DNA from: Acidobacteriaceae bacterium
Lineage (GTDB): Bacteria > Acidobacteriota > Terriglobia > Terriglobales > Acidobacteriaceae
Length of the DNA: 33,334 bases
Assembly (NCBI GenBank): GCA_003131635.1
Contig: PKVZ01000071.1
Coordinates: forward strand, 17,813 to 51,146
Direction: 5' to 3'
Position 1 is the stretch's first letter. Each line of letters starts with the position of its first letter. The position numbers were made by a program, and so were the translations under genes. Shown here in pieces: positions 17,598-33,092 of this stretch. The notes beneath the pieces were generated by a model that did not search any database, had not been told where the DNA came from, and saw only the letters and a list, made by a program, of their open reading frames with translations.

Positions 17598-18830
17598 ATG
17601 GATTTTTCTTCGTCACCGAGAGCCCAAGGCTATGTTCAGCGCCTCTCTGCGTTCATGCACGAGCAGGTATTGCCGGCGGAGCCTGAGTATTGCGCGCAAT
17701 TGCAGAATGTTTCCGACTGGCGCAGTTGGAAGCAGCCTCCGGTGATGGAGACGTTGAAGGCCAAAGCGCGGGCGGCTGGACTGTGGAACCTGTTTCTTCC
17801 CGATGGGAAATATGGCGCCGGCCTAAGCAATGTGGAATACGCGCCTTTGGCGGAGATTACCGGGCGATCTTTGATCGCGCCCGAAGTTTTCAACTGCAAC
17901 GCTCCCGACACGGGCAATATGGAAGTTCTGGTGAAGTATGGCTCGGAAGCGCAAAAGCTGCGCTGGCTTGCGCCTCTGCTGGCCGGCGAAATTCGCTCCG
18001 CATTTTGCATGACAGAACCGGATGTGGCTTCCTCGGACGCCACCAACATGCAAGCCACGGCGCTCATTGAAGGCGACCACGTCGTCCTCAACGGTCGGAA
18101 GTGGTGGAGTTCGGGCATCGGGCATCCTCACTGCCGGCTGCTGATCTTCATGGGGTTGACTGAACTTTCTGCCCCGAAATACGAGCGTCATTCCATGGTC
18201 CTGGTGCCGCTCGCTACTCCGGGAGTGAAGATCGAACGTATGGTGCCGGTATTTGGTTCTTATGACGAGCCTTTCGGTCATGGTGAGGTTCGGTTCAGCA
18301 ATGTTCGGGTGCCACGCGACAACATTATTGCCGGGCCGGGCCGCGGCTTCGAAATCGCGCAGGGCCGGCTTGGTCCCGGCCGCATCCATCACTGCATGCG
18401 CACGCTGGGAGCGGCGGAACGCGCGCTTGAACTTTTGTGCCGCCGCTCGCTGCAGCGCGTGGCCTTCGGCAAGCCTTTGGCCGAACTGGGTGGGAACGCC
18501 GACGTGATTGCCAATGCACGAATCAAGCTGGAGCAAGCCCGGCTTCTGACTCTGAAGGCGGCGTGGATGCTCGATGAAGTTGGGACCAAAGGCGCGCGCA
18601 GCGAAATCTCCCAGATCAAGGTCGCGGTTCCGAACATTGCTTTGGAGATTATCGATCAGGCAATTCAAATGCACGGTGGCGCCGGCGTCTCTGACGATGT
18701 TCCCTTGACCGAATTGTTTGCCACGATTCGCACTCTACGCATTGCGGACGGGCCCGACGAAGTGCATCGCGCTCTGATCGCCAAGCTGGAACTGAACAAA
18801 TACAAATCCAGGATTATGGCTACGGCCTGA
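17598..18830 (+). CDS. Acyl-CoA dehydrogenase, ACAD10/ACAD11-like
   Basis: 410 residues from ATG 17598, with GGAGAGAG about a dozen bases upstream; an in-frame TTG eight codons earlier is less likely. It is a FAD flavoprotein with the usual three-part ACAD fold. Signatures are [17 protein letters not shown] (flavin/substrate loop), [81 protein letters not shown] at the C-terminus. The WWSSG and [10 protein letters not shown] pattern is that of the ACAD10/11 group, which processes phosphorylated 4-hydroxyacyl-CoA. In those human proteins the dehydrogenase is fused to an APH-type kinase; here such a kinase is encoded separately at 26666-27730. It is probably controlled by the divergent LysR gene. 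Confidence 0.93.
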
Positions 18831-18961
18831 GCGCGCAGCGAGAGCCGTTCAGGGGGACGCTTTCCAGTGCCGACGAGTCGCCAGTCTGTAGGACGCCCAT
18901 AAGCATTGCGGGCCTGAGTTCCCCAGAGGCCCTCCTCAAGTGCGGAACAATCTAACCGCTT

Positions 18962-18981
18962 CGCACGTAGAACCACGTGCG
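18962..18981. promoter_or_regulatory. Inverted repeat upstream of the SnoaL-like gene
   Basis: CGCACGT-AGAACC-ACGTGCG has perfect 7-bp arms and ends 26 nt before the ATG at 19008. It could be an operator or a leader hairpin. Confidence 0.4.
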
Positions 18982-19007
18982 GATACCTCGCAGAGAAGGA
19001 TTCCTTC

Positions 19008-19499
19008 ATGAAAAAGACCTTTGCTCCGCTGCCAGCGCTTCTCTTTACAGCGCTGCTTGCTGCACCGCTTGCTCACATCCAGGCACAGGCTGCGCCTGCA
19101 CCCGATCCACTTTTTCAAACGATCCAGACGTTGGACGCCAAACTTTTCGACGCCTACAACCATTGCGATTTGGAGAAACTCGGATCGCTGTTGGCCGACG
19201 ATTTGGAGTTCTATCATGACAAGAGCGGCTTAACCAGCGGACGGCAAGCTCTGGTTGAGGGTGTGAAGAACAACATCTGTGGCAAGGTGACCAGAGAACT
19301 CGTTCCAGGGACGCTTGAGGTATACCCCATTGCCAACTACGGCGCAGTGGAGATTGGCGTTCACCGTTTCCACCATCCCGGACACGAGAATACCGAGTCT
19401 GTCGGCGAGGCGCAGTTCATTCACCTCTGGCAAAACAAAGATGGAGTATGGAAGATCACTCGTGTTATCAGCTTCGACCACCATTCCCTGACAAAGTGA
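19008..19499 (+). CDS. Secreted SnoaL/NTF2-like (DUF4440-type) protein
   Basis: 163 residues with a signal peptide (MKKTFAPLPALLFTALLAAPLAHIQAQA, cleavage near 26-28). The mature part is a single NTF2-like cone fold: LDAKLFDAYNHCDLEKLGSLLADDLEFYHDKSGL, then strands with VEIGVHRFHH and AQFIHLWQNKDGVWKITRVISFDHH. This fold hosts many small-molecule enzymes and binding proteins, and the His-rich strands (FHHPGHE, DHH) might bind a metal or ligand. No specific function can be given. GAGAAGGA lies six bases before the ATG. It is separated by 177 bp from the dehydrogenase gene and convergent to the receptor gene. Confidence 0.85.
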   Translation: MKKTFAPLPALLFTALLAAPLAHIQAQAAPAPDPLFQTIQTLDAKLFDAYNHCDLEKLGSLLADDLEFYHDKSGLTSGRQALVEGVKNNICGKVTRELVPGTLEVYPIANYGAVEIGVHRFHHPGHENTESVGEAQFIHLWQNKDGVWKITRVISFDHHSLTK

Positions 19500-19585
19500 A
19501 CAGTGACCGGCTGATTGCGATGCTGTCCAGAGGTTCAGTCGTACATTCCCGGCTCACGCCGTTCGCGAGCGGATGAGCGCCCGCC

Positions 19586-22500
19586 TCAGAACGACAAGCG
19601 CACGCCGAGTTGCACCTGCCGCTTCGGAAACGCGGAAGTGAAGGCCAGCGGCGTGCTGGAAGTGGCCGTCCCGCCGCCCGGCAGCGCCGTGCCCGGCCGG
19701 ATCCCGCTTACGTTGAAGGTGGTGAACCCCGGGGTCAAACCAAAGAGCGGGCTGACCTCATTGTTTACGCTGGCAAAATTCGTCCGGTTCGCAATGTTGA
19801 ATCCTTCCGCAGTGAACTGCAGGTTTGCCTTTTCGCCCAGCTTGTGCGCCCAGGTCAAGCGCATGTCAAAGTCAATGTAATCGGGACCAAGGCCAGTGTC
19901 GCGCGGCGCTCCGATGGGACGTTCATTCGTTGTATGGTTGTCGCCGTTCACTTCTCCGCCCGCCAGCAAGTTGAAAGGATGCCCGCTGTGGGCCGAAAAG
20001 ATGGGAGCCAGCTGAAAGCCCGACAAAATATTTTCTTTCCACGGACTGTCGAGCACACCCGCAATCACTACTTTGCTCCGCTGATCGAACTCGGAAAGGC
20101 TGCGATCCAGGTTGATGTTTGTCGGATCCTGTGGACCGTAATCGGAGTTGTAATCCGTGGACGTGTCATAGCCTTTGCTGAATGTGTAATTGCCAAACAA
20201 AGTGAAGTGCTGGCGGAAGCGCTTCTTGACCTCCACAATGGCGCCCTCGTAAAGCGCATAGGCCTGTGAGCTGTACTGGTTGTTCTGCACCACCAGCGGA
20301 TTTACAAAGCACTGAATGTTTGGGTTATCACAGGGCAGGCCGCCAGGCTCAGTTCCTCCCAGCGGATCGGCGCCCGCGGCTGTGGTGTTCCAGTTGCGAT
20401 AGGAAATCGTTTGACCATTGGCCAGAGTCAGCGTGGTGAATGGCGCCGGCAGCAGGTTGGTATCGATCGCGATCGGGAGCCTTTGCGTGTGAGTATAGAT
20501 TCCGCTCACAGAAATCGAGAACCCGGTTCCCATCTCCCGTTCAATTCCGAAGGAAGCCTGTTGCGCGATGGGCGGGCGATATCCGGGTTGATTCACGAAC
20601 ACCACCTGCAGCGGACCGACGGGACCGCTATTCGTAACATTGATGCCAAACGGAGCCACAGCAGCCGGCGTGATGCAGGCCGCATTCCCCGGGGTCGGGG
20701 TTGTGCACTGAATTAATCCCTGCGCAAAGAGTGTCTGGAAAACGGTGGGCGCGCCCGCCAACTTTAAGGCCGGCACCCCGCCAATCGGATCTACATAAAT
20801 AGAAATTTCGCGGTTGCACGGGCTAGAGCCAGTACCGGGGATTATCGGTACACCGAACTGGGAGACTCCGCAAGTCGCCGTCAGATTTGCGACCTGGCTC
20901 GGTCCTCCGATGTTCTCGACCGCAGACTTATTCTGGTTAACCGCCCCCAGGCTTAAGTCGACGTCGGGAATTTGTACGTCCACGGGTCCGTAGAAAATTC
21001 CGTACCCGCCGCGGACCACAGTCTTATGATCCTTGAATGGATCCCATGCGAATGAAACCCGGGGCGCAAAATCTTTCTTATAGGTTGTCAATGGGGCGAA
21101 TTGCGAGTCCAGGTCGTAGCGGAGACCGTAATCAAGAGTGAGGTTTGGCGCGATCTTCCAGGAATCCTGCCCATAGAACGCGGTCAGCGGCCGGCTGTAA
21201 TACGGGTATGTGGGATTTCCGAAACCTTGCTGGTAAACCTGCGGCAAGCCAAACGATGCCGATTGCAGCGGGTTGATGGTGGTGGTAGCAAGCTGTGGGC
21301 TGATCAGAAATCCAGGCAGAGAACCGAACACAAAACGGCCGGGAAAGAAGGTGTGCGATTCGGTGTGATTGCCGCGGAGTAGTTCGTAGGCGCCAAACTT
21401 GAGGTTGTGATGGCCGCGGGTCACGGAGAAATTGTCCGCGAATTCGTAACGCCGCAGGATGGTGAGATTGGGTATGAAAATGTTCGTTCCCAAATTATTG
21501 ATGAAGCTGGGAATCTGGAGCCCAACCTGTCCCGGTTCGTTCGGAATCACGTTAAAGCTGTTGTAATCCCATTGCACCCGAGCCTCGTTCCCAGCAGTCG
21601 AACTGAACTGGCGATACCAGGCGGCTTGCAAATTGTTATCGTAGGTGTGGAGCGAACTTCCCGCTGAATAAGCAGTCAACGACTGCACATCTGGAGACTC
21701 TTCCAGATCGTGCCCATATCTGTACGTTACGGAGATCTCGTTGTTCGTATCGAAGCGGTGATCCAGGCGGCCCGACGCCAGGTATTCCCGCGTGTCGTAG
21801 GGGAAAAGTCCGCCCTGAGTTTCGAACTGATCGATCAGGAAGCCGTTCAATGCGCCCTGCCCCGGAGTTATGAATGGGTTCGCACCTCCGGGATTCGGGT
21901 TGACCGTTAAAATGCTCTGCAGAGCAAAACCGCAAACACTCGGCGGCAGGGGTACGCTGGGCAAGCAAGGCACCGGCGCCGGTGATGGGTTTGTCTCCAG
22001 CGTGCCAATAATGGCATTCTGCGCCGCCGTCGGACGAAAAACATTCGTGTCGGTCAACAGAGGAACCGCGTTCTGCGCATTTTGCCGCAAGCCCTCGAAT
22101 GCGGCAAATAGAAACGTCTTATCTTTCTTGATCGGGAAACCCACCGTGCCGCCGTATTGCTGGCGGCTCAAATTATCCTTTATCGGCGAACCCAAAGTAT
22201 CGGGGTTGGCAGGATTGAAGGTCTGTCCGGGCTGCAATGCCTGGCTGAAGGAAAACGGATTTGCGGCGTCCAACGCATCGTTGCGGAAAAACCCATAGAG
22301 CGTGCCGTGCACTTTGTCGGTGCCGGACTTGGTTACAATATTGATCGACGCCCCGGTGGCTGCGCCCAGGTCTGCAGCGTAGTTGCTGCGATTGATCTGG
22401 AATTCCTGCACATCGTCCTGGCTCACTGTCAGGCGCACGCCCCCGCTATCTCCCGAGGTCTCGCCCCCATCCACCGTTATGCTGTTTCCCCGGCCATTGC

Positions 22501-23158
22501 TGCCGTAGAAGGACAATCCGCTTTGCGGCGTTTGTTTGACTCTGAAATCCTGGTCCCCCGCCAGTCGGGTGGCATCGGAGACCCCGGGTGCAAGCAAGGT
22601 AAACGTAAGATAATCGCGCCGGTCAATCGGCAGGTCGGCGATGTACTGTTGCGAGATTCTGTCCGCCTGGCTGCCTCGTTCAGTCTCCACCTGCGGGGGT
22701 TGGTCCGTTACCTCGACCACCGTTGCAACCCTGGAAGGATTCAGTTTGAAATCGGAGATGACCGTCTGGCCGACCTCGACGGTGACTCCCCTTCGAATCT
22801 GTGTGCCAAACGTTGCCATTTCCGCGCTGACGTCATAAGTCGCGGGCGAAAGCCCGGTTACTCGGAATTGACCGGTGGAATTTGTCGTGGCGGTGCGCTT
22901 CAGACCAGTTTGTGTATCCCCCACAGTGACCGTAGCTTTCAGCAAAACGCCGCCCGCAGCGTCGGTCACCGTCCCGGTAATTTCTCCCGAAGAGCCCACG
23001 CCCTGTGCGTAAGCTATAGAGGTTGCGAGCAAGAAGCACGCCAGGATACCTATACGTGAGACTGCGGCAATCCCTGAATAGAAAAATCCGCGTTTCCAGT
23101 AGCGCGTCCGTTGACCTGAAGCCGCACAATTACCAATACTGCTCCGTTCGAGACTCAT
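19586..23158 (-). CDS. Oar-like TonB-dependent outer-membrane receptor with carboxypeptidase-regulatory domain
   Basis: 1190 residues. The signal peptide has its hydrophobic core at about 34-50, with cleavage after AYAQ near 52. Residues about 57-140 are a carboxypeptidase-regulatory-like beta-sandwich (GEITGTVTDAAGGVLLKATVTVGDTQTG). A TonB plug follows (about 155-275: LPIDRRDYLTFTLLAPGV, FYGSNGRGNSITVDGGE). The rest is the 22-strand barrel, including YRYGHDLEE, FKLGAYELLRG, FGNYTFSKGYDTSTDY and a C-terminus RQVQLGVRLSF ending in Phe, as required for BAM insertion. This architecture is expanded in Acidobacteriota and serves energy-dependent uptake, often of oligosaccharides or other polymers. 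The substrate is unknown. GAGGG precedes the ATG by five bases. It has its own upstream region of 377 bp. Confidence 0.95.
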   Translation of the reverse strand: MSLERSSIGNCAASGQRTRYWKRGFFYSGIAAVSRIGILACFLLATSIAYAQGVGSSGEITGTVTDAAGGVLLKATVTVGDTQTGLKRTATTNSTGQFRVTGLSPATYDVSAEMATFGTQIRRGVTVEVGQTVISDFKLNPSRVATVVEVTDQPPQVETERGSQADRISQQYIADLPIDRRDYLTFTLLAPGVSDATRLAGDQDFRVKQTPQSGLSFYGSNGRGNSITVDGGETSGDSGGVRLTVSQDDVQEFQINRSNYAADLGAATGASINIVTKSGTDKVHGTLYGFFRNDALDAANPFSFSQALQPGQTFNPANPDTLGSPIKDNLSRQQYGGTVGFPIKKDKTFLFAAFEGLRQNAQNAVPLLTDTNVFRPTAAQNAIIGTLETNPSPAPVPCLPSVPLPPSVCGFALQSILTVNPNPGGANPFITPGQGALNGFLIDQFETQGGLFPYDTREYLASGRLDHRFDTNNEISVTYRYGHDLEESPDVQSLTAYSAGSSLHTYDNNLQAAWYRQFSSTAGNEARVQWDYNSFNVIPNEPGQVGLQIPSFINNLGTNIFIPNLTILRRYEFADNFSVTRGHHNLKFGAYELLRGNHTESHTFFPGRFVFGSLPGFLISPQLATTTINPLQSASFGLPQVYQQGFGNPTYPYYSRPLTAFYGQDSWKIAPNLTLDYGLRYDLDSQFAPLTTYKKDFAPRVSFAWDPFKDHKTVVRGGYGIFYGPVDVQIPDVDLSLGAVNQNKSAVENIGGPSQVANLTATCGVSQFGVPIIPGTGSSPCNREISIYVDPIGGVPALKLAGAPTVFQTLFAQGLIQCTTPTPGNAACITPAAVAPFGINVTNSGPVGPLQVVFVNQPGYRPPIAQQASFGIEREMGTGFSISVSGIYTHTQRLPIAIDTNLLPAPFTTLTLANGQTISYRNWNTTAAGADPLGGTEPGGLPCDNPNIQCFVNPLVVQNNQYSSQAYALYEGAIVEVKKRFRQHFTLFGNYTFSKGYDTSTDYNSDYGPQDPTNINLDRSLSEFDQRSKVVIAGVLDSPWKENILSGFQLAPIFSAHSGHPFNLLAGGEVNGDNHTTNERPIGAPRDTGLGPDYIDFDMRLTWAHKLGEKANLQFTAEGFNIANRTNFASVNNEVSPLFGLTPGFTTFNVSGIRPGTALPGGGTATSSTPLAFTSAFPKRQVQLGVRLSF

Positions 23159-23283
23159 ATTCCCTCTGCCTCACCAGGCTTGTCTTAAATCGCGATAAAG
23201 ATCCTCCGGCGGCTCAACCGGCGACCGGACAGGTTTCTTCCAACCCGACTGCTTCCAGGACAGAACGCCTTCGCGCTTCTTCT

Positions 23284-23314
23284 CTTGTTTTTGTTTTTTT
23301 TGTTTTTGTTTTGA
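23284..23314. repeat. Low-complexity (CAAAAA)n-like tract in the receptor leader
   Basis: On the receptor's coding strand the tract is runs of 4-8 A separated by single C (on + TTGTTTTTG...TTTTTTTTG...TTTTG). It lies about 130-155 nt upstream of the receptor start, within the probable 5' UTR. Confidence 0.7.
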
Positions 23315-23389
23315 ATTTGCTGAATGAGAACGGACAAAAAACTCCCCACGCTCCTCGCTTCAGGGCGCCGTATCTCCATAATGGCGCGT

Positions 23390-23418
23390 AGCGTATCCGC
23401 ATTCGCAAAATTCATCAA
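23390..23418 (-). promoter_or_regulatory. Candidate promoter of the receptor gene
   Basis: On the minus strand TTGATG and TACGCT are spaced by exactly 17 nt. The -35 match is good and the -10 match is modest. The site lies about 235 nt upstream of the receptor start. Confidence 0.35.
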
Positions 23419-23425
23419 ATGAATT
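23409..23425. promoter_or_regulatory. Palindrome overlapping the receptor promoter
   Basis: AATTCAT-CAA-ATGAATT has perfect 7-bp arms and covers the proposed -35 element of the receptor promoter, a typical place for an operator. Confidence 0.4.
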
Positions 23426-23535
23426 GTTTTGATAATGCAGTATGCTTGCCGAGAATCTAGACGGGTATTCGTTTCGCAGCGGAAAATTGGCTCATGACAT
23501 CCCTGTTCGCGGGATTAACTCCTTTCAGCGTGCGA

Positions 23536-24312
23536 CTAAAGGAATTCGCGAATATGGTTGTGAGCCGCCTGAGTCTGATCCGTAAGAAACAGATGACTCG
23601 CATGATCGAGCAAAACCAGCTTTGCGCCGGGAATACGCGCCGCAATCAATTCCCCGTTGCCGGGTGGCACCAGCGCATCCGACTTTCCGTGGATAACCAG
23701 CGTCGGCGCCGTGATCTGCGCGATACGACTGTATGCCTCCCACGCCAGAATTCCCTGCAGTTGAGCGGTGTAGCCTTCCTGCGAAGGCAGGCATTGCCGG
23801 CGCAAGGTCACATCTTCCTCAATTTTCTCTCGCGGCGTATCCGCATCGTAGATGTAGGGAAGTATGGCCGCCCGTGCCTGCTCCAGCGACATGTCACGGG
23901 CCATCAGAATGTCGGACACTTTGCGCTCGGCCCGCACTACCGAAGGTCCGCCGGGCGAAGTGCAGCCGAGAATGAGTGAGCGCGTCCGCGCCGGATATTG
24001 CAGAGCGAATTCTTGTGCAACCATGCCTCCCATCGAGACTCCGAAAACGTGAGCGTTGGAAACTCCGGCTGCGTCCAGAACCGCGGCCGCGTCCGATGCC
24101 ATAGTGGAAATTGAATACGGGCCGGAGGGAACGTCGCTCAATCCCACGCCTCGATTGTCCAGCGCCACCGTGCGGAAGTCTTGTGCAAGCATCGGTCGCG
24201 TGCGGTGCCACAGGCTCGAGGGGTATCCCAGGCCCATGATCAGCAGAACCGGTTCCCCTCGCCCTTGTTCGTCCCAATAAAGCTTTGTTCCTTGATTCTG
24301 AACGAATGACAT
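23536..24312 (-). CDS. Alpha/beta-fold hydrolase
   Basis: 258 residues from ATG 24312 (MSFVQNQGTKLYWDEQGRGEPVLLIMGLGYPSSLW). The triad is readable: nucleophile Ser93 in FGVSMGGM, the acid Asp in IHGKSDALVP and His in LLDHASHLF. The oxyanion element is MGLGYP. DNRGVGLSD is typical of the 3-oxoadipate enol-lactonase/haloperoxidase-like branch, but the branch does not fix the substrate; esters, lactones or thioesters are possible. It starts 14 bp past the stop of the long acyl-CoA dehydrogenase gene at 24326-26095 and is probably co-transcribed with it. A role in releasing or opening an acyl intermediate is inference from context. Confidence 0.92.
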   Translation of the reverse strand: MSFVQNQGTKLYWDEQGRGEPVLLIMGLGYPSSLWHRTRPMLAQDFRTVALDNRGVGLSDVPSGPYSISTMASDAAAVLDAAGVSNAHVFGVSMGGMVAQEFALQYPARTRSLILGCTSPGGPSVVRAERKVSDILMARDMSLEQARAAILPYIYDADTPREKIEEDVTLRRQCLPSQEGYTAQLQGILAWEAYSRIAQITAPTLVIHGKSDALVPPGNGELIAARIPGAKLVLLDHASHLFLTDQTQAAHNHIREFL

Positions 24313-24325
24313 TGGAGTCTTTCCC

Positions 24326-26095
24326 TCAAACCGTATACTTTTCGCTGGCCAACAACCGCCGCGCAATCTGGCGCCGCAGTTCGATCGAATTCACCGGATC
24401 GTGAGCGCCATATGCGCGCAAACGGGAAAGATTCCAGCGCAGTTCCTCGCCCTGGGAACAGGCGCTCAGCACCGTTCTTGACGCGAGTTCGATTTTGCCG
24501 ATGGCATCACGCAGATACACGGCACAGGCATCCGCCGCGTTCGCTCCGCCACCGGCCGCCGCCAGTTTCCGGCTGCGCAGCAGGCTCGACTCCATGGCAA
24601 ACACTTCCATGATGATGTCAGACATATTCATGATGATCTCCTGCTGCTGTTCGAGCTTCGCGCCGTGCTTCTGGTGTGCGATCCCCAGGGTCAGCAGAGC
24701 AATCTTTTTCGCATTCTGAACCAGGCTCAGTTCCGGATCACCGGCCACTTCCGCAGGTTGCGCTCCGGCTTCTTTCACCGCAGCGCGGGCGGCTTCGAGC
24801 AGAGGCAGAATTCCCCGAGCTGCACGCTTCAATGGCATGCCCGTGATCACCAACCGGTTAATCTCGCTGGTTCCTTCAAATAGACGATTGATCCGCGAAT
24901 CACGATAGGCCCGCTCGACTGCGTAGTCTTTATGGTATCCGTAGCCTCCGTGGATTTGGACTCCCTCATCGACCACGTAGTCCAGCATTTCGCTGACGTA
25001 GACCTTGATCATCGAGCACTCGGCGGCAAATTCCTCGATGGCCTTCAGCTCTTGTGTACCGTCGGACGATTCCGGAGAAGCGACGGGCATTTGATTCTCA
25101 ATCAGCCCAACCACACGCCACGTCATCGACTCCGCCACAAAAATACGGATCGCCATTTCAGCCAACTTATGTTGAATCGCGCCAAACTCGGCAATCGCCG
25201 AGCCGAATGCTTTGCGCTGTTTGGCATACTTTATACAAATAGCGAACACGTTTTTCGCCGCCCCGACCCCCGCCGGTCCCAGCTTCAGCCGTCCAATGTT
25301 GAGGATGTTGAATGCGATCATGTGGCCGCGTCCAATCTCACCCAGCACGTTTTCCACCGGCACCGGGACGTTATCGAGATACACCGCCGTAGTGGAACTG
25401 CCCGTGATACCCATCTTGTGTTCTTCCGCGCCGCTGCTGACGCCGGGAAAATTCCGCTCCACCAGAAATGCGGTAAATTTTTCGCCTCCAACCTTGGCAA
25501 ACACCGTAAACAGATCGGCCGCGCCCCCGTTGGTAATCCACATCTTCTGGCCATTCAAAATGTAGTGCTTGCCATCGGGCGCGAGATCGGCGCGAGTTCG
25601 CGCGGCCAGCGCATCGGACCCCGCCAGTGGCTCGGTGAGCGCATAGGCCGCCAGCATCTCCACTTTGGCCAGCTTCGGCAAATACCTGCGCTTTTGCTCT
25701 GGAGTTCCAAAGTAAACCACCGGCAGCGTGCCGATTCCGGTGTGCGCCGAGTGCCAGCCTCCGTAAGAGCCGTCCTGTCCCATACGCTCGGCCGTTACCA
25801 TCAACGAGGGCAGATCCATGGCCATGCCGCCATACTCCTCCGGAATCGCCATTGCAGTCAGACCCAATTCCACCGATTTGCGCAATACTGCCATCGCAAC
25901 CCCTGGCTTTTTTTCGCGGATCGCTGGAAGATTCGGCTCGACCTCGTTGGCCCAGAATTCGTCCACCATGTGGCCGACAGCGAGATGTTCTTCGCTAAGA
26001 TCTTCCGGGGTGAAGATGTCTTGCGGTGTCGATTCTTCGAGCAGAAATGCAGTTCCTTTTGTCGTCTTGTGCGAGATGTCTGTTAATGTCGTCAT
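24326..26095 (-). CDS. Long (VLCAD/ACAD9-type) acyl-CoA dehydrogenase
   Basis: 589 residues, about 200 more than short ACADs, because of a C-terminal helical extension (about 425-589) as in VLCAD-type and related bacterial enzymes. The start at ATG 26095 begins MTTLTDISHKTTKGTAFLLEE, typical of this family. Key motifs are AYALTEPLAGSDALAART, LNGQKMWITNGG, NIGRLKLGPAGVGAAK, QIHGGYGYHKDYAVERAYRDSRINRLFEGTSEINR, with catalytic base Glu407. It catalyses FAD-dependent alpha,beta-dehydrogenation of acyl-CoA, passing electrons to an electron-transfer flavoprotein not encoded here. The start codon overlaps that of the divergent MaoC gene by two bases, so the promoter must lie inside the MaoC coding sequence. 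The hydrolase gene follows directly. Confidence 0.95.
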   Translation of the reverse strand: MTTLTDISHKTTKGTAFLLEESTPQDIFTPEDLSEEHLAVGHMVDEFWANEVEPNLPAIREKKPGVAMAVLRKSVELGLTAMAIPEEYGGMAMDLPSLMVTAERMGQDGSYGGWHSAHTGIGTLPVVYFGTPEQKRRYLPKLAKVEMLAAYALTEPLAGSDALAARTRADLAPDGKHYILNGQKMWITNGGAADLFTVFAKVGGEKFTAFLVERNFPGVSSGAEEHKMGITGSSTTAVYLDNVPVPVENVLGEIGRGHMIAFNILNIGRLKLGPAGVGAAKNVFAICIKYAKQRKAFGSAIAEFGAIQHKLAEMAIRIFVAESMTWRVVGLIENQMPVASPESSDGTQELKAIEEFAAECSMIKVYVSEMLDYVVDEGVQIHGGYGYHKDYAVERAYRDSRINRLFEGTSEINRLVITGMPLKRAARGILPLLEAARAAVKEAGAQPAEVAGDPELSLVQNAKKIALLTLGIAHQKHGAKLEQQQEIIMNMSDIIMEVFAMESSLLRSRKLAAAGGGANAADACAVYLRDAIGKIELASRTVLSACSQGEELRWNLSRLRAYGAHDPVNSIELRRQIARRLLASEKYTV

Positions 26096-26657
26096 GAAAA
26101 CTCCTATGCCACCTTTTGAGATTGAGAATCTAAATTCCCTGAAACAGTTCGAAGGACGCGATTTCCCCGCAACCGAGTGGTTTGTGATCACGCAGGATCG
26201 CATCCTGAAATTTGCCGACGCCACCGAGGACCGCCAGTGGATTCATGTGAACCCGGAGCGCGCCCAAAGCGAATCGCCCTTCGGCGGCTCCGTTGCCCAT
26301 GGCTTTCTCACTCTTTCGCTCCTGAGTCACTTTCTTAAACAGGCAATCCATATCCGTTCGGGGGTCGCGTTGAGCGTCAACTATGGACTGAATAAGGTTC
26401 GTTTTCCTTCGCCCGTTCGTGCCGGCTCGGCGGTCCGCGCCCGCGTCACCCTGCTTTCGGCGAAGCTGCCGGAAAAAGAATCGCGCGGGTTTATGAAAAA
26501 AGAGTCGGGCGAGTTTATGAAAAAAGAGGTGGGCGAGTTTACGGAAAAAGATTCGCGCGGGTTTCTGGACGCTGCATTCCTCATTCACGTCGCGAGCGAA
26601 TCCGCCGAAAAACCCTGCTGCGTCGCGGAGTGGCTGGTTCGGTATTACCCGGAGTGA
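26094..26657 (+). CDS. MaoC-like (R)-enoyl-CoA hydratase with an internal repeat insertion
   Basis: 187 residues, somewhat longer than the usual 140-160. A hot-dog fold is indicated by ITQDRILKFADATEDRQWIHVNPERA, PFGGSVAHGFLTLSLLSHFL and LNKVRFPSPVRAGSAVRARVTL. The catalytic dyad is Asp46 and His51 of the FADATEDRQWIH hydratase motif. It should hydrate trans-2-enoyl-CoA to the (R)-3-hydroxy form. Residues 127-158 are four near-identical eight-residue units of the type (K/E)KESRGFM/KKESGEFM inserted before the late strand LDAAFLIHVASE, an unusual expansion. ATG 26094 is chosen; ATG 26106 is an alternative. The start overlaps the divergent dehydrogenase start. The gene is convergent to the kinase gene with an 8-bp gap. 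Confidence 0.92.
   Translation: MKTPMPPFEIENLNSLKQFEGRDFPATEWFVITQDRILKFADATEDRQWIHVNPERAQSESPFGGSVAHGFLTLSLLSHFLKQAIHIRSGVALSVNYGLNKVRFPSPVRAGSAVRARVTLLSAKLPEKESRGFMKKESGEFMKKEVGEFTEKDSRGFLDAAFLIHVASESAEKPCCVAEWLVRYYPE
26472..26567 (+). repeat. Four 24-bp in-frame tandem repeats inside the MaoC gene
   Basis: Units start at 26472, 26496, 26520 and 26544. Each fits RAAAAAGA-TCG-GCG-GTTT-TG with few changes. Units 1 and 4 share GAAAAAGA-TCGCGCGGGTTT; units 2 and 3 share AAAAAAGAG-GGGCGAGTTT. All are in frame. Confidence 0.95.
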
Positions 26658-26665
26658 TCGTTGCT

Positions 26666-27730
26666 TCATATCGTCCCGCTTTCCGCGCCCTGCCATGAAG
26701 CACGCAGCAAGGTATGGATTCTCTGCGGCATGGCCGCGAAACGTTCGTCCTGGGTAAGCCCTTGCGCGTAACGGTAGTAAATCTGCTGAATGATGACGGC
26801 GACTTTGAAGCGGGCAAAAGTCAGATAGAAATTCATGTCGCTGGCATCGCAGCCCGTGGCTGCCGCATAGCGCTCGACCAATTGTGCGCGCGTCAGTGTG
26901 CCCGGCAGCGTAGTCGGCGCGCTCCGAATTTCCTGAACTTCTTCAGCATCTTGCGGATCAACCCAATATGCCAGGGCAGTCCCCATGTCCGTCAGCGGAT
27001 CTCCCAGCGTGCACATCTCCCAATCTAAAACCCCCACGATCCTGGTCGCATCACTCGGGTCGAGCACTACATTGTCATACTTGTAATCGTTGTGAATCAG
27101 TGCGGTTTGATGGCTCACCGGAATTCGCTGCACCAGCCAGGCGGAAATGCGTTCGACCTCGGGCAGGTCGTGCGTTTTCGAATTATGGTAGCGTTCGATC
27201 CAACCTTTGACCTGGCGTTCAAGATAGCCCTGTGGTTTGCCCAGATCGCCAAGCCCAATCGCGGCGTAATCGACACTGTGGAGACGCACCAGGTTATCGA
27301 GAAACGCTTCGCTTAATTTCTGTGCGGTCTCCGCCGGAAAGGGCACATCCGTGGGCGGGTCGCGGCGAATGATCATTCCGCGAATCGGCTCCATCAGGTA
27401 GAAAGGCGCATTGAGAATCGAAAGATCGTCGCAATAAAGGATCGCCTTCGGCGCCACAGGATAAGCGGCGTGTAGTTTGGACAGCACGCGATACTCTCGC
27501 GACATGTCATGTGCCGTCCGCACTTTGCTGCCAAAAGGCGGGCGCCGCAGCACCACTTCCCGGCTCCCCAGCCGCACCATGTAAGTCAAATTGGAATGGC
27601 CGCTGGGAAATTGTTCGATCGAAACCGGTCCGCTGTGAGCGAAGTGACCGCGCAGAAATGGAACTAGACGGGCGAGATCAAGTTCTTCGCCGGCCCTCAC
27701 CGTTCCCGCTTGATCGCAGAACGCCACCAT
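26666..27730 (-). CDS. APH-fold acyl-CoA kinase, ACAD10/11 N-domain / LvaA type
   Basis: 354 residues from ATG 27730, which has AGGAC about nine bases upstream; a TTG at 27757 is possible but would overlap the preceding gene. It is a phosphotransferase of the aminoglycoside/choline kinase fold. LIHNDYKYDNVVLD supplies catalytic Asp215 and metal-binding Asn220. GVLDWEMCTLGDPLTDMG supplies the second acidic motif (Asp236). FPSGHSNLTYMVRLG is the nucleotide loop and VVLRRPP carries the ATP-contact positive residue. The pattern is that of the kinase half of ACAD10/ACAD11 and of P. putida LvaA, which phosphorylate 4-hydroxyacyl-CoA. It is the last gene of the ligase/FadB operon, 20 bp after the phosphatase-fold gene. 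Confidence 0.92.
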   Translation of the reverse strand: MVAFCDQAGTVRAGEELDLARLVPFLRGHFAHSGPVSIEQFPSGHSNLTYMVRLGSREVVLRRPPFGSKVRTAHDMSREYRVLSKLHAAYPVAPKAILYCDDLSILNAPFYLMEPIRGMIIRRDPPTDVPFPAETAQKLSEAFLDNLVRLHSVDYAAIGLGDLGKPQGYLERQVKGWIERYHNSKTHDLPEVERISAWLVQRIPVSHQTALIHNDYKYDNVVLDPSDATRIVGVLDWEMCTLGDPLTDMGTALAYWVDPQDAEEVQEIRSAPTTLPGTLTRAQLVERYAAATGCDASDMNFYLTFARFKVAVIIQQIYYRYAQGLTQDERFAAMPQRIHTLLRASWQGAESGTI

Positions 27731-27750
27731 ACTCGCAAGTCCTGTATCGG

Positions 27751-28470
27751 CTACCAATACGTCAGCATTGAATCCTCATCGAGATGCGGGTGGGCATTGA
27801 ACGCGCTCAGCGCCAATCTCTCGCCCGACGCACGAAACTCGCTGAACGAAGCGTTGCGCGACATCCAGGACATCTGCAGCGTGTCCTCCGGAGACAGATG
27901 CAGCGCGCAGCGCACGGCCGCCCCAATCGGTCCCGCGGAAGTGAAGATCACCGCGCTCGCCGCCGGAGTAATACCGCGCATCACTTGCACCACCCCGCGT
28001 TCCACCCGCAAACAGAACTCATGCCAGGATTCAATGCCGTCCGCGGCAGTCTCCCCCGCCACCCACTTGCCGGTTACTGCCTCGAACAGTTTTTGAAAAG
28101 TCCTGCGCCGCTCTCCGGGCTCGCAGGCGCTCTCATGCGCGCTGCTCAGTTCGCTAATCCCGGAGTCCACTTGCCTTAATTGTGGAAGGCACGTGCGCAT
28201 CACGGCCTCGGCTTGATATTCATCGAATTCGCTCATCACCGCGATCTCCGGAAAACTATGACCCGCGTTGCGAAAGACTTCGGCCACGATCCGCGCCGTC
28301 TCCTGTTGCCGCAAACGCGGGCCCGCGTAAGCGTTGTGAAAAATCATGCCCCGCCGCAACCAGTACTTTCCCAGCAATCTGGCTTGCGCCTCGCCGTTCG
28401 CACACAACTTGTCGTAATCCGCCTCCAGAAAAGACGCTTGCCCGTGGCGCACCAACGTGATGTGCTTCAT
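27751..28470 (-). CDS. Histidine-phosphatase-fold protein lacking the second catalytic His
   Basis: 239 residues. It begins with the phosphoglycerate-mutase-like signature LVRHGQAS (phospho-acceptor His8 or His9 by numbering), followed by AGPRLRQQETARI with the pocket Arg, and EFDEYQAEA. The strand that usually carries the second His (SHGG) reads VIFTSAGPIGAAV, so that His is missing. The related group seen next to ACAD11-type kinases often has TSGGP here, from memory. Activity as a phosphatase or mutase is therefore uncertain; it may act in a modified way or bind the phosphorylated intermediate. ATG 28470 overlaps the stop of the FadB-like gene (ATGA), showing tight coupling, and the kinase gene follows after 20 bp. 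Confidence 0.88.
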   Translation of the reverse strand: MKHITLVRHGQASFLEADYDKLCANGEAQARLLGKYWLRRGMIFHNAYAGPRLRQQETARIVAEVFRNAGHSFPEIAVMSEFDEYQAEAVMRTCLPQLRQVDSGISELSSAHESACEPGERRRTFQKLFEAVTGKWVAGETAADGIESWHEFCLRVERGVVQVMRGITPAASAVIFTSAGPIGAAVRCALHLSPEDTLQMSWMSRNASFSEFRASGERLALSAFNAHPHLDEDSMLTYW

Positions 28471-30614
28471 GCCGAATTCGTCCGCTCCAACAACCCGGTC
28501 GTACCCTGCTCCTTGTCAAACTCGGCAAAAGTTTTGCCCGCTTCCGCCAGGCGCTTTAGCAGAGGAGCCGGCGCCCACGCTTCTCCGTGTAGTTGGTGGA
28601 ATTCGCAAACGCGTTGGTAAACGTTTTGCAATCCCACCGTGTCGGCGTGCCACATGGGGCCGCCTCGATAAGGTCGAAAGCCATAACCGTTGAGGTAGAT
28701 GATGTCGATGTCGACCGCGCGCAGCGCGTATCCTTCTTCGAGAATGCGCGCGCCCTCGTTGACCAGCGCATAGATGCAACGATCGACGATCTCCGCGGCG
28801 GAAATTTGCCGCTGCGGGATTCCGGCCTCTGCGCTCCACTGCCGCACCAGGGCGGCGACTTCGGGATCCGCGCTCGCACGGCGGTTCTCGTCGTATCGAT
28901 ACCATCCTTTCATCGTTTTCTGGCCGTAGCGCCCCAGTTCGCAAAGACGGTCTTCGGCAAAGGGCTGGCGGATTCCGGGTTTTTCCAGGTGCCTGTACTC
29001 TTGGCGAATGCGCCAGCCCACATCGAGACCCGCCAAATCGCCCGTCGCTAGCGGGCCCATGGCATTTCCAAAATCGAAGAGCGCCTTATCCACGGCTTCT
29101 ACATCCGCTCCTTCTTCCACGAGAAATTGCGCTTCGCGCCGATACGGGCCGAACATGCGGTTACCAACAAAACCGCGGCAGTTCCCTACCAGCACTCCGA
29201 TCTTGCCCAGCTTTCTGGAGAGTTGCATGCAAGTGGCGACCACTTCTTTGCTCGATTTTTTTCCGCGCACAATTTCAAGCAAGCGCATTACATTGGCCGG
29301 ACTGAAGAAGTGGGTTCCGATCACAGCTTCCGGCCGCGACGTGGCTGCGCCGATTTCGTCGATGTTCAGCGTCGAGGTGTTGCTCGCCAGAATTGCTCCC
29401 CGCTTACACGCTTGGTCCAAATCCGCAAACACACTTTTCTTCAGTGCCATGCCTTCGAAAACCGCCTCCACCACCATGTCCACATCGGAGAACGCATCGT
29501 AGGTGAGCACGGGCGTGATCAGCCACAGGCGCTCATCCATGAACTCCTGGGTGAAGCGCCCACGCTGCACCGAACTGGCGTAGTTCTTGCGGATCTTCCC
29601 CATGCCCAGATCAAGCGCCGCTTCATCCAGATCCTTGAGCAGCACCGGAATGCCGGCGTTGGCAAACACCATGGCGATGCCTCCGCCCATGGTTCCGGAA
29701 CCAACCACTGCGACTCGGTTCACCGGCATCAGCGGAGTTTGTTTCGGAATGTCAGGAATCTTCCCCACCTCGCGCTCGCCAAAGAATACATGGATGAGCG
29801 CCTTCGACTGATCGGAGAAAAGACAGTCGGTGAAAAGTTTCTGTTCGGCCTGGCAGCCTGCTTCAAACGATAAGCGAGTCGCGGCTTCCACCGCCTCGAT
29901 CGCCGCTAGCGGAGCTTTCATGCCTCGTTGTTTTTTGTGAGCGGCGTCGCGGGCCGCGGAAAAAATCGCGCCGTTGTCCGCTATAGTTCCCAGCTTCTCT
30001 GTTCGCTCTCGCGTCTTCGGAGCAGGCTTCTCTGCGATTTCGCGCGCGAACACCACTGCGCCCGAGAGTAGGTCCCCCTCGATCAAACGATCAATCAGTC
30101 CAAGCGCGGCAGCATCCCGCGCCGAAACCGGCTTGCCCTCGGCACACATCTCCACTGCCTTGGCGACGCCCACAAGCCGCGGCAAACGCTGGGTTCCGCC
30201 GGCTCCGGGAATAATTCCCAGTTTCACTTCCGGCTGGCCAACCTGCGCCGTGGGGGCTGCCACCCGGTAGTGGCCGGCCATGGCCAGTTCCAGTCCGCCC
30301 CCAAAAGCCGTGCCGTGAATCGCCATCACCACTGGCTTGCCGCTCTCTTCGAGGTGAAGCAGAAGTGGTAACAGTGTTCTACGGGGTGAGGCGCCGGAAG
30401 TCATCTTGCCGAATTCCCTTATGTCGGCGCCGGCGACAAACGTACGGCCAGCACCGATTACGACCGCGGCTCTGATGGCATTGTCGGCATTCACCTGATC
30501 GATCGCCGCCCAGATTCCCTCCGGCACTCCGGGACTGAGCGCGTTCACCGGTGGATTGTCGATCGTGATTACTGCGACATCGTTGTCTTTGTTGATTTTG
30601 ACAAGGTCGTTCAT
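28467..30614 (-). CDS. FadB/FadJ-like enoyl-CoA hydratase / 3-hydroxyacyl-CoA dehydrogenase fusion
   Basis: 715 residues from ATG 30614 ([27 protein letters not shown]). The extra open sequence up to 30767 overlaps the ligase gene and is not used. Residues 1-200 are a crotonase: [21 protein letters not shown] with Glu109 and [21 protein letters not shown] with Glu129, both catalytic glutamates. Residues about 297-480 are the NAD-binding domain ([21 protein letters not shown]) with catalytic His435 in [18 protein letters not shown]. Two C-terminal dehydrogenase domains follow ([49 protein letters not shown]). It performs hydration and NAD-dependent oxidation in beta-oxidation. A thiolase is not in the window. 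It is 44 bp after the ligase gene and overlaps the next gene by four bases. Confidence 0.96.
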
Positions 30615-30658
30615 CGGCGCTCTCACCAGCTTCCCGAACTCCTGCTCCGGCCACAGCC

Positions 30659-32242
30659 CTAATGAGGAGCAGAATCCGTCAGATACTTTTTTCGCAACTC
30701 CCGCTTCAAGACTTTGCCTGTCGCTGTTCTGGGCAAGCTCTCGCAAAAGTCGATCGATTGCGGACACTTGTAATGCGCCAGACGTGAGCGGCAGAACTCG
30801 ATCAGCTCCGCTTCACTCAGCTTGCATCCTGGCTTGGCCACCACAACGGCTCTCGGCACCTCACCCCATTTCGAGTCGGTCACGGGAATTACGGCGGCTT
30901 CGTAAACGCCGGGGTGTGCCGACAGAACTTTTTCAACGTCGAGCGACGAAATATTTTCTCCGCCGCTTACAATGATGTCCTTCTTGCGATCCACGATCAG
31001 GATGTAGCCGTTCTCCGCGATCACGGCCATGTCGCCGGTGTGAAACCATCCGCCCCGCAAAGCTTCCGCCGTGGCTTGCGGCTGTTGCCAATAACCCGCC
31101 ATCACTCCGTCGCTGCGGGCAATGATTTCTCCCATCGTCACCCCGTCGTGCGGCACATCGTTGTCTTTGGCATCGACCACTCGAAGCTCGCATCCCGGAA
31201 AAGCCCAGCCGGTCATGGCTTGCACAACGTACCGCTCCTCCGGCGTGCATTGCATCTCCGGTTTCAGTTCGGCGGTGGAAAGCGAAGGCGAACACTCGGT
31301 CAGTCCGTATCCCGAGAAGCATTTAAATCCCAACGTCTGCTCCGCGTCCCGGATCAAATTCGGAGAAGATGCCGCGCCGCCAATCGACGCCCACTCCACA
31401 CTGCTCAAGTCATACTTCGAACGCGCCGGCGACTGCACCAATGCGGCGGCCATAATCGGCACCAGGCTCAGCTGAGTGACGCGCTCTCGTTCCACCAGTC
31501 GGAATATTTCCTCCGGCACAAAGCGCGGAAGCATGACATGCGTCCCTCCCACCATCGTGACCGTATGGGCCGCTCCCCAACCGTTGGCGTGAAACAAAGG
31601 GATGGTGTGCAGCACCACGTGGTCATTAGCGATGTGGTAATGCAATGCGATGTTCATCGCATACAGGTGCACGTTGCGGTGCGTGAGCATCACACCTTTC
31701 GGGCTGGCGCTGGTTCCGCTGGTGTAGAACATTTCTGCCACGGAGTTTTCGTCGAACGCCATCAATTCCTCCCGGTAAGGGGCGGCTGAGGCCAGCATCT
31801 GCTCGTAAGTCTGACCGGAAAGCCAGGCCGCTTGCGGAGTTCCATCCATCTGGTGGAACGCGATCACCGTCGGCAGCTCCCGCCGAAACGTATCCACCAG
31901 GCCAGCAAACTCTTCTTCCAGGAACAGCACCGCCGCACCCGAATCGTTCAGAATGTAAGCCAGCTCTAGACCTGACAGGCGGATATTGAGCGGAAGCAAA
32001 ATGCAGCCCGCCTCGAGAACTCCGTAATAAGCTTCGAGCAGGCGATGGCAGTTCAGACTAAGAAACGCAATGCGATCGCCAGGCTTCACTCCGGCGCGGC
32101 GCAGCGCGCCCGCCAAACGCGCTACACGATCGCCAAACTCGGCGTAGGTAAACCGGTGTTCCTGGCACACTACGGCCGTCTTCCGGGGAAACTGCAACTC
32201 CGAATAGCGCAGAAAACGGACCGGTGTCAGTGGCAAGTTCAT
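30659..32242 (-). CDS. AMP-forming acyl-CoA ligase (fatty-acid type)
   Basis: 527 residues of the ANL adenylate-forming superfamily. Motifs in order: FYTSGTSASPKGVMLTH (phosphate loop), IPLFHANGWG, SGYGLTECSP, GWFHTGDMAVIAENGYILIVDRKKDIIVSGGENIS (the hinge and A8 motif) and RTATGKVLKREL with the catalytic Lys of the C-domain. It activates a carboxylic acid to acyl-CoA via acyl-AMP; chain length cannot be read, though the family includes medium- and long-chain and LvaE-type ligases. It is the second gene of the operon, 9 bp after the SDR, and would supply acyl-CoA to the FadB-like enzyme that follows. Confidence 0.95.
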   Translation of the reverse strand: MNLPLTPVRFLRYSELQFPRKTAVVCQEHRFTYAEFGDRVARLAGALRRAGVKPGDRIAFLSLNCHRLLEAYYGVLEAGCILLPLNIRLSGLELAYILNDSGAAVLFLEEEFAGLVDTFRRELPTVIAFHQMDGTPQAAWLSGQTYEQMLASAAPYREELMAFDENSVAEMFYTSGTSASPKGVMLTHRNVHLYAMNIALHYHIANDHVVLHTIPLFHANGWGAAHTVTMVGGTHVMLPRFVPEEIFRLVERERVTQLSLVPIMAAALVQSPARSKYDLSSVEWASIGGAASSPNLIRDAEQTLGFKCFSGYGLTECSPSLSTAELKPEMQCTPEERYVVQAMTGWAFPGCELRVVDAKDNDVPHDGVTMGEIIARSDGVMAGYWQQPQATAEALRGGWFHTGDMAVIAENGYILIVDRKKDIIVSGGENISSLDVEKVLSAHPGVYEAAVIPVTDSKWGEVPRAVVVAKPGCKLSEAELIEFCRSRLAHYKCPQSIDFCESLPRTATGKVLKRELRKKYLTDSAPH

Positions 32243-32251
32243 GAAATTTTC

Positions 32252-33028
32252 TTACCAGGCCGACTGGCCTCCATCGACCACCAGCACGTGCCCGGTCACA
32301 TAAGCCGAAGCGTCCGACGCCAAAAATACCGCCGCACCTTTCAGATCGTGATCGCCCCCAAAACGGCCCGATGGAATCTTCTCCAGGAGCGAATCTCTCC
32401 GGTGCTCGATGACCCAATCCGACATGTGCGTTGGGAACCAACCCGGGGCAATCGCGTTCACCTGTACGTTGTGTGGCGCCCACTTGCATGCCAGGTCTTT
32501 GGTAAAAGCGATCACACCCCCTTTGCTCGCGTGGTAACCGATCGCCTGCAGCTCCGCCGACGCTCCGCCCAGTCCCGCCACGGATGCGATGTTGATAATT
32601 TTGCCCGACTTTTGCGCGACCATGGCCTTGCCCGCCGCCTGGCTAAATAGAAATGTGCCGGTCAAATTAGTGGAGAGGACTTTATCCCATTGCTCCAGCG
32701 TCATTTCTTCCACCGGAGCCGCCCATGACACTCCAGCATTGTTGATCAGAATGTCGATTCGTCCGAACTTTGCCAGGGTCGCGTTCACGACTTCCTGAAT
32801 CGCGGCCTTGTCTTTGACATCGCAACCCAACGCCAGAGTTTGCACACCCAGGGCGCGCAACTCCTCCGCCGCATGCTCACAGCGTTCCTTCTTGCGCGCA
32901 CAGAGAACCAGGTTGGCGCCCATCTCCGCCAGACCCTCAGCCATCTGACGCCCCAGTCCGATCGATCCGCCCGAGACAACGGCCACGCGTCCGCTCAGAT
33001 CGAAAAGCTGCTTGACATTCACCTGCAT
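32252..33028 (-). CDS. Classical SDR oxidoreductase (FabG/gluconate-5-dehydrogenase-like)
   Basis: 258 residues, normal for classical SDRs. The cofactor motif is SGGSIGLGRQMA (19-30), followed by NNAG (96-99). The catalytic triad is Ser149 in NIASVAG, Tyr165 and Lys169 in YHASKGG. The C-terminus DASAYVTGHVLVVDGGQSAW is typical. It is the first gene of the acyl-CoA catabolic operon. In P. putida lva clusters an SDR (LvaD) acts on the hydroxyacyl intermediate; a similar role here is inference. The ATG at 33028 has only a modest AAAGG site upstream. A promoter with an overlapping palindrome lies 36-64 bp upstream. Confidence 0.95.
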   Translation of the reverse strand: MQVNVKQLFDLSGRVAVVSGGSIGLGRQMAEGLAEMGANLVLCARKKERCEHAAEELRALGVQTLALGCDVKDKAAIQEVVNATLAKFGRIDILINNAGVSWAAPVEEMTLEQWDKVLSTNLTGTFLFSQAAGKAMVAQKSGKIINIASVAGLGGASAELQAIGYHASKGGVIAFTKDLACKWAPHNVQVNAIAPGWFPTHMSDWVIEHRRDSLLEKIPSGRFGGDHDLKGAAVFLASDASAYVTGHVLVVDGGQSAW

Positions 33029-33061: not shown

Positions 33062-33092
33062 GTTAATAACATATTATAGTTACTAACGTCAA
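33062..33092 (-). promoter_or_regulatory. Promoter with overlapping operator of the acyl-CoA operon
   Basis: On the minus strand TTGACG is followed after 17 nt by TTATTA, a plausible sigma-70 promoter (33064-33092). Overlapping it, GTTAATAAC (33062-33070) and GTTACTAAC (33079-33087) form an inverted repeat with 8 of 9 pairs and an 8-nt AT spacer. The site resembles operators of TetR-like repressors; none is encoded next to it within the window. Confidence 0.5.

Follow-up and report, generated by a model that had tools for sequence, protein, structure and literature searches.

A candidate split ACAD10/11-type 4-hydroxyacyl-CoA catabolic locus in an Acidobacteriaceae genome, with a probably exchanged dehydrogenase

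We analysed a stretch of 33,334 nucleotides from an Acidobacteriaceae bacterium (assembly GCA_003131635.1, contig PKVZ01000071.1, positions 17,813 to 51,146; hereafter the window), which carries a gene for an APH-fold kinase (P0002) and, about 8 kb away, a gene for an acyl-CoA dehydrogenase (ACAD) of the ACAD10/11 type (P0001), both reading frames being open and intact (Table 1). The kinase gene ends a minus-strand operon in the order SDR oxidoreductase, acyl-CoA ligase, FadB-like enzyme, histidine-phosphatase-fold protein (P0003) and kinase, with intergenic gaps of 9, 44, -4 and 20 bases; a first-pass annotation made from the letters alone had placed these five genes in one operon. That annotation had also taken the kinase and the dehydrogenase for the two halves of ACAD11 in a split system, which is now supported by the families, an active-site signature, a tree, co-occurrence and relatives in which the two genes stand side by side; missing from it were the receptor, hydrolase, FadE, MaoC and DUF4440 genes inside the same interval. 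In the draft genome (5.3 Mb in 308 contigs, 88.5% complete) the kinase and the dehydrogenase are each the only one of their kind found: there is a single close match to P0002, and P0001 is the sole ACAD10/11-type match, the four others at E<=0.001 being just 28-31% identical.

Table 1. Features of the locus in window coordinates, with proposed roles and the matches behind each assignment.
Feature	Position	Strand	Proposed role or remark	Support
LysR-type regulator	16529..17509	-	divergent from the ACAD10/11-type gene	Pfam LysR_substrate 72 bits, HTH_1 62 bits
ACAD10/11-type dehydrogenase (P0001)	17598..18830	+	predicted 4-phosphoacyl-CoA phospho-eliminating flavoenzyme	PDB matches, signature, trees
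DUF4440 gene	19008..19499			
TonB-type outer-membrane receptor with CarboxypepD_reg domain	19586..23158	-	probable importer	Pfam
alpha/beta hydrolase	23536..24312	-	putative esterase or lactonase	Abhydrolase_1 100 bits
FadE-type acyl-CoA dehydrogenase	24326..26095	-	ordinary beta-oxidation	NCBIfam NF058590 744 bits (cut-off 600)
MaoC-like hydratase	~26106..26657	+	start uncertain, 26094 or 26106	MaoC_dehydratas 76 bits
APH-fold kinase (P0002, clade K1)	26666..27730	-	predicted 4-hydroxyacyl-CoA kinase	Pfam APH 167 bits
Histidine-phosphatase-fold protein (P0003)	27751..28470	-	Ser178 replaces the second catalytic His	His_Phos_1 52 bits
FadB/FadJ-like hydratase/3-hydroxyacyl-CoA dehydrogenase	28467..30614	-		NF008363 520 bits, under the curated cut-off of 869
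Acyl-CoA ligase (AMP-ligase)	30659..32242	-		PRK06187 subfamily 544 bits (cut-off 476)
SDR oxidoreductase	32252..33028	-	possible 4-oxoacyl-CoA or 3-hydroxyacyl-CoA step	PRK08213 subfamily 357 bits (cut-off 279)
Paired GTTANTAAC boxes	33062..33087		upstream of the SDR gene; probable operator of the operon	

By family, the dehydrogenase is a true ACAD10/11-type enzyme. It shows the N-terminal, middle and C-terminal acyl-CoA dehydrogenase domains of Pfam, and its best sequence matches in the PDB are 4hr3 (570 bits) and the ACAD11 entries 8v3u, 8v3v and 2wbi (464, 461 and 453 bits), while the best ordinary ACAD, a short-chain enzyme (SCAD), reaches 141 bits; its identity to mouse ACAD11 is 55% (439 bits). 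According to Rashan et al. (PMC12440821), mouse ACAD11 uses R626, H634 and R637 to bind the 4-phosphate beside the catalytic D753. Residues H228, R257, R262, H265, R268 and D384 of P0001 correspond to mouse H597, R626, R631, H634, R637 and D753 (numbering of the PDB chain is shifted by one relative to that of PMC12440821). This full HRRHRD signature is found in 116 of 119 aligned rows, P0001 and mouse ACAD11 among them, the exceptions being one row cut short, one with Tyr for His and the FadE of the window, which has the general Arg only. The rows consist of 115 different relatives, P0001, mouse ACAD11, 4hr3 and the window FadE; 141 matches past score and length cut-offs, the window's own among them, reduced to 115 different sequences, and the dehydrogenase rows were selected because they resemble ACAD10/11 more closely than FadE. 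The phosphate and catalytic signature is lacking in three ordinary ACADs encoded in the genome, one of which is the window FadE. Trees were built with FastTree on the larger sets and with IQ-TREE in quick mode on hand-selected sets of 38 dehydrogenase and 37 kinase rows; P0001 falls inside a 24-row clade with mouse ACAD11 (support 100, with one ordinary ACAD as outgroup), so that the ACAD10/11-like assignment of the first-pass annotation stands. An ordinary short-chain ACAD is ruled out as the identity of P0001 by the distance between 141 and 464 bits and by the signature, and the enzyme is predicted to act on 4-phosphoacyl-CoA without an electron acceptor.

The kinase gave a more divided picture. 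Its best PDB matches are 9o56 (384 bits), 3dxp (183) and the ACAD11 kinase (170 and 167), and it is 32% identical to the mouse ACAD11 kinase (173 bits). P0002 keeps R78, E79, R172, D215, N220 and D236, of which D215, N220 and R172 correspond to mouse D220, N225 and R176; for R86, in the numbering of PMC12440821, no alignment column could be matched. The catalytic and acyl-CoA-side residues are kept in 143 of 146 rows (two exceptions are cut short and one has Gln), and the 175 kinase matches past score and length cut-offs represent 142 different sequences, that of the window included. In the tree, P0002 belongs to a 24-row clade with 9o56 (support 100) and does not group with the ACAD11 kinase domain, mouse ACAD11 and 3dxp forming a separate group (92) and LvaA of the levulinate (lva) operon lying far off; its nearest named relatives are from Acidobacteria (64, 63 and 59% identity). 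The kinase is thus nearer to that of ACAD11 than to LvaA, as its sequence comparisons indicate, and it stands in a clade of its own, so that P0002 can be said to work like the ACAD11 kinase by residues and partner but is not orthologous to it.

The two genes are kept or lost together. Among 61 close genomes the kinase occurs in nine, the dehydrogenase in eight and both in eight, and the ninth kinase genome (G006) holds part of a dehydrogenase gene at the edge of a contig (61% over 147 residues). In the phylum at large, 66 of 297 genomes have the kinase and 65 the dehydrogenase: 64 carry both, two the kinase alone, one the dehydrogenase alone and 230 neither, which makes 64 of the 67 with either gene. 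In some genomes (G314, G383, G282) the two lie far apart or on different contigs, and since the pairing is kept where the genes are unlinked, linkage is not the cause of the co-occurrence. All this bears on the reading that we are looking at chance neighbours, an antibiotic- or thiamine-type kinase beside unrelated fatty-acid genes. APH-fold matches are indeed common, with 24 in the genome, most of them weak and over short stretches, but the pairing across the phylum, the closeness of the two genes in several phyla and the NCBIfam models for drug and thiamine kinases, which score at most 33.1 bits and far under their cut-offs, leave this reading with hardly any probability. The same models rule out an antibiotic or thiamine kinase as the identity of P0002.

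Gene order in relatives extends the association. Most of the receptor, hydrolase, SDR, ligase, FadB, kinase, phosphatase, MaoC and dehydrogenase genes recur in G002, G006, G014 and G035, which are relatives within the genus, and in the loci L040 and L041 of acidobacteria; the TonB-type receptor adjoins the operon in G002, G006, G035, L040, L041 and G474, the hydrolase adjoins the SDR in G002, G006, G014 and G035, and MaoC is convergent with the kinase and phosphatase genes in the window and in G002, G006 and G014. A thiolase and a major facilitator superfamily (MFS) transporter stand between FadB and the kinase in G002, G014 and G035 (checked with Pfam for G002); neither was found in the window. 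A gene set so common to relatives looks like a dedicated uptake and degradation cluster. Farther off, a plasmid of Azospirillum (L035) has LysR, dehydrogenase, kinase, phosphatase and SDR genes in a row, and Pseudoalteromonas (L038) has dehydrogenase, kinase, phosphatase and SDR genes in one locus with a LysR gene, divergent from the dehydrogenase, whose product is 34% identical to that of the window. The divergent LysR/ACAD pair recurs in Pseudomonas (L157, L159, L164), where the kinase stands away from the LysR-dehydrogenase pair, which is the same split as in the window, and where L158 has the order phosphatase, SCP2, kinase, SDR; a P0001-like gene (E<=1e-60) is present in 147 of 149 sampled genomes of the genus of Pseudomonas vranovensis. 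Two loci of Pseudomonadaceae (L162, L163) have a dehydrogenase 51-52% identical to P0001 with no LysR or kinase gene adjoining. As a separate observation, L040 has two adjacent ACAD-like genes between ligase and FadB (L040:4659-6973), while the window has a single FadE elsewhere.

The histories of kinase and dehydrogenase do not agree. In its tree, P0002 joins the kinases from the acidobacterial loci L040-L042 and from G474 (support 98), whereas P0001 groups with Azospirillum, 4hr3, Pseudoalteromonas and the phylum genomes G436 and G234 (support 100) and not with its counterparts in L040-L042 or in the genus relatives G013, G014 and G034. Forcing P0001 into one clade with these was rejected by the approximately unbiased (AU) test (p-AU 4.7e-63, for a group defined after the tree was seen). 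Two types of dehydrogenase exist in the phylum, one at least 56% and one 38-45% identical to P0001, both including signature-bearing rows, and the same kinase clade pairs with either, as in G474 (kinase 65%, dehydrogenase 43%). The dehydrogenase adjoins MaoC in G002, G006, G014, L040 and L041, and the window has FadE at that place; the nearest relative, G036, shows the same order as the window, with the LysR-dehydrogenase pair 8 kb off. P0001 with its own LysR gene has probably displaced a locus-native dehydrogenase, rather than having been inherited together with the operon, and such a displacement would explain both the 8-kb separation and the different control of the two key genes. An exchange of this kind fits the report that the phospho-intermediate is released in vitro and not channelled (Rashan et al., PMC12440821).

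Different control of the two genes, a LysR site against a palindromic promoter, had been put forward in the first-pass annotation. The palindrome before the SDR gene is real: the paired GTTANTAAC boxes are the only such pair in the genome (the reversed control pattern gave 0), the pair is also present in G036, and L041 has by eye a similar, non-identical sequence there. The divergent LysR gene is present as well. Separate control of dehydrogenase and kinase operon is thus supported by the gene arrangement, and control of the dehydrogenase by LysR is putative, supported by the recurrence of the LysR/ACAD pairing.

The protein encoded next to the kinase, P0003, has the fold of a branch 1 histidine phosphatase and an altered active site. 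Its AlphaFold2 model (pLDDT 95.5) matches phosphoserine phosphatases and PGAM5; a search with the single sequence finds no PDB relative, and one with the family profile finds PDB phosphatases. The RHG motif (RHA in 7 of 59 rows), the second Arg and the Glu of the branch are in place, His9, Arg8, Arg54 and Glu84 being invariant wherever rows cover them. The second His, which is part of the catalytic core of histidine phosphatases, is Ser178 in P0003, and Ser stands there in all 59 rows (58 different members, P0003 included) where three aligned PDB phosphatases have His; as the family was collected with a profile of Ser-bearing seeds, the invariance is a statement about this family and not about every nearby phosphatase. 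Of the 60 kinase loci that include 3 kb at either side, 37 have a member no more than 5 kb from the kinase, as do 43 of all 80 loci; 33 of the 80 are Pseudomonas or Stutzerimonas by their titles. No kinase-phosphatase or kinase-ACAD fusion was seen among the loci scanned. In the open-licence literature we found nothing of use on phosphatases without the second His or linking 4-hydroxyvalerate with a histidine phosphatase.

We propose that this frequent companion of the kinase probably keeps the phospho-intermediate in check, either through weak phosphatase activity or through regulation without catalysis. It could also be a working phosphatase, one that disposes of surplus or dead-end phosphoacyl-CoA or else has a part in removing the phosphate, the latter being the role that Habe et al. 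(2019, PMC6692424) suggested for a gene of Pseudomonas citronellolis; the invariant nucleophile His9 with Arg8, Arg54 and Glu84, and the fold match to active phosphoserine phosphatases, make this a real contender, while the Ser in all 58 different members keeps it somewhat below an even chance. The HAD domain of ACAD10 is described by Paquay et al. (PMC11342911) as regulatory with negligible phosphatase activity, and by analogy P0003 may play the same part. More tentatively, we speculate that 4-hydroxyacyl-CoA kinases have repeatedly gained a phosphatase-fold partner that lost a catalytic residue and serves as brake or sensor instead of phosphatase (the bacterial His-to-Ser family, the HAD domain of ACAD10 and perhaps a Haloferax HAD protein), with P0003 keeping phosphoacyl-CoA from accumulating at times when little of the exchangeable, separately regulated dehydrogenase is present. 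The Haloferax protein is encoded on a plasmid near an ACAD and kinase pair (L166:3861-4583) and has, by eye, a single Asp of the DxD motif; HAD proteins with one Asp of DxD can be active. DUF6285 was observed both in LvaB (L238:8098-8451, 76 bits) and in a Thermus protein (76 bits) encoded between a kinase and a His-bearing phosphatase (L172:9128-10128), and is likely a kinase partner.

From the families, the intact catalytic residues, the operon-like spacing, the co-occurrence and the synteny we infer a set of reactions and their substrate class. With good confidence, we read the interval as a single degradation locus for 4-hydroxy acids, or for 4-oxo acids after reduction to these, which would enter beta-oxidation through a phosphorylated intermediate, and as judged by sequence it is a well-supported bacterial ACAD10/11-type 4-hydroxyacyl-CoA system. 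The receptor and hydrolase would import and free the acid, the ligase would make its CoA ester, the SDR would possibly reduce a 4-oxo group and the kinase would phosphorylate the 4-hydroxyl; the ACAD10/11-type flavoenzyme would then remove the phosphate with transient use of FAD, giving a 2-enoyl-CoA to be hydrated and oxidised by MaoC and FadB, and FadE would handle further rounds of beta-oxidation. The ACAD10/11 chemistry itself has been demonstrated, including for Burkholderia orthologues (PMC12440821, PMC11342911). The substrate class named in the first-pass annotation holds in part: 4-hydroxy acids fit the residues and the partners, and levulinate is not singled out, being no better supported than other 4-hydroxy or 4-oxo acids. 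The kinase clade might instead use another hydroxyacyl-CoA, with a 3-, 5- or side-chain hydroxyl as in a steroid- or terpenoid-like acid, whose phosphate the dehydrogenase would eliminate, so that 4-hydroxy fatty acids would not be the substrate. The separate kinase clade (32% to the ACAD11 kinase, 26% to LvaA) would allow this, and the two extra ACAD-like genes of L040 with the SCP2 gene in the Pseudomonas L158 operon hint at bulky acyl chains, but P0001 keeps the residues that hold the 4-phosphate in ACAD11, and in the elimination mechanism put forward for ACAD10/11 the leaving group sits at the gamma position (PMC12440821), which makes this alternative unlikely.

Several points weigh against this reading or qualify it. 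The families of SDR, ligase and FadB are too broad to point to a substrate, and the argument is drawn from sequence. A thiolase, which three relatives have beside the operon, was not found in the window or in about 37 kb of flanking contig. The pairing has exceptions, with G316 and G486 carrying the kinase without the dehydrogenase and G446 the reverse; the phylum counts used differing thresholds (kinase E<=1e-30, dehydrogenase E<=1e-60) and lists compared by hand, and the Fisher test for co-occurrence (p = 1.5e-61, 297 phylum genomes) overstates independence, the counted genomes being related. As the genome is 88.5% complete, an extra copy of either gene may be missed. In 23 of the 60 kinase loci that include 3 kb at either side, the 5 kb around the kinase hold no phosphatase of the family, and in Thermus (L172) a phosphatase with the canonical His, missed by the family profile, follows the kinase and DUF6285 genes. 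Finally, we found no biochemical work on the clade of P0002 in the open-licence literature, nor any paper there on 9o56, which is titled only 'aminoglycoside phosphotransferase'.

Some observations concern the neighbourhood itself. The MaoC gene contains an in-frame tandem repeat of 24 bases in 3.8 copies (26473-26564) that encodes Lys/Glu-rich repeats, and the MaoC of G036 is 85% identical to that of the window, neighbouring genes being 92-97% identical. At 26093-26108 the divergent start codons of FadE (26095) and MaoC (26094 or 26106) overlap or nearly so; this leaves no space for separate promoters, and one start may be wrong or a promoter may lie inside the other gene. On the other side of the LysR gene, a subtilase-family gene (14409-16247) has repeated units of 36 and 18 bases (16122-16223) at its 3' end, with a tRNA-Arg (16405-16481) following shortly after the repeats.

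The analysis places ACAD10/11 chemistry, described in mammals in 2024-2025, in varied bacteria as a free-standing pair of genes, nearly always retained or lost together, with an exchangeable dehydrogenase, and it offers a simple function prediction for many genes annotated as 'phosphotransferase family', 'histidine phosphatase family' and 'acyl-CoA dehydrogenase family'. If it is true that the altered phosphatase regulates the kinase, this would help to explain, by comparison, why ACAD10 has a HAD domain with negligible phosphatase activity.

Among known systems, mammalian ACAD11 and ACAD10 share with the window a kinase and an ACAD with the R626/H634/R637/D753 signature (PMC12440821, PMC11342911), but the window has two separate genes 8 kb apart with a kinase of another clade, and in place of the fused HAD domain of ACAD10 it has a histidine-phosphatase-fold protein encoded next to the kinase. 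The lva operon of Pseudomonas putida (LvaA-LvaG) resembles it in kinase, signature-bearing ACAD, SDR, ligase and the same proposed phospho-intermediate, and differs from the window, which has phosphatase, FadB, MaoC and TonB receptor genes. LvaA and LvaC were recognised in Pseudomonas by gene order and Pfam (DUF6285 for LvaB, a PrpR-type sigma-54 regulator, DUF485 and a sodium:solute symporter), and against the representative L238 the kinase is 26% identical to LvaA (71 bits) and the dehydrogenase 36% to LvaC (221 bits). The correspondence with LvaA/LvaC drawn in the first-pass annotation therefore holds for the classes and is loose beyond them, at 26% and 36% against 32% and 55% to mouse ACAD11. 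Levulinate catabolism proper, with the locus as an orthologue of the lva operon, has the shared gene classes in its favour, and also the region of P. citronellolis in which a phosphatase gene stands beside an LvaA homologue and which responds to levulinate (PMC6692424); it is nevertheless decidedly improbable, as neither LvaA nor LvaC belongs to the clade of its counterpart P0002 or P0001, and LvaB matches (E<=1e-3) are confined to lva loci among the loci compared. A tblastn search with LvaB, LvaR, LvaF and LvaG of L238 found no match in the window, a 21% LvaG-like match lying about 13 kb beyond it, and on the clades and this search an lva orthologue was rejected. The levulinate-responsive region of P. 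citronellolis LA18T, as Habe et al. (2019, PMC6692424) describe it, has a kinase, a histidine phosphatase, an ACAD, an SDR and a ligase and no lvaB, and the authors called for functional analysis of the suggested phosphate-removal role; its kinase is 59% identical to LvaA and its ACAD 78% to LvaC, with a sigma-54 type regulator, so that both are of the Lva type, unlike the window, and its phosphatase is likened to P0003 by the gene description. On the plasmid of Azospirillum thermophilum (NZ_CP029357, L035) the LysR (52%) is divergent from the ACAD (73%) and is accompanied by kinase (47%), phosphatase (32%) and SDR genes, all in one row in contrast to the window, with ligase, FadB, MaoC and TonB receptor not annotated within 17 kb. 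The open-licence literature gave nothing of use linking ACAD11 with LvaA and bacteria. The chemistry and part of the gene set were thus already known, from ACAD10/11, the lva operon and the P. citronellolis cluster with its phosphatase gene; new are the near-strict pairing across the phylum, the exchanged dehydrogenase, the kinase clade of its own and, in the companion family, the replacement of His by Ser without exception.

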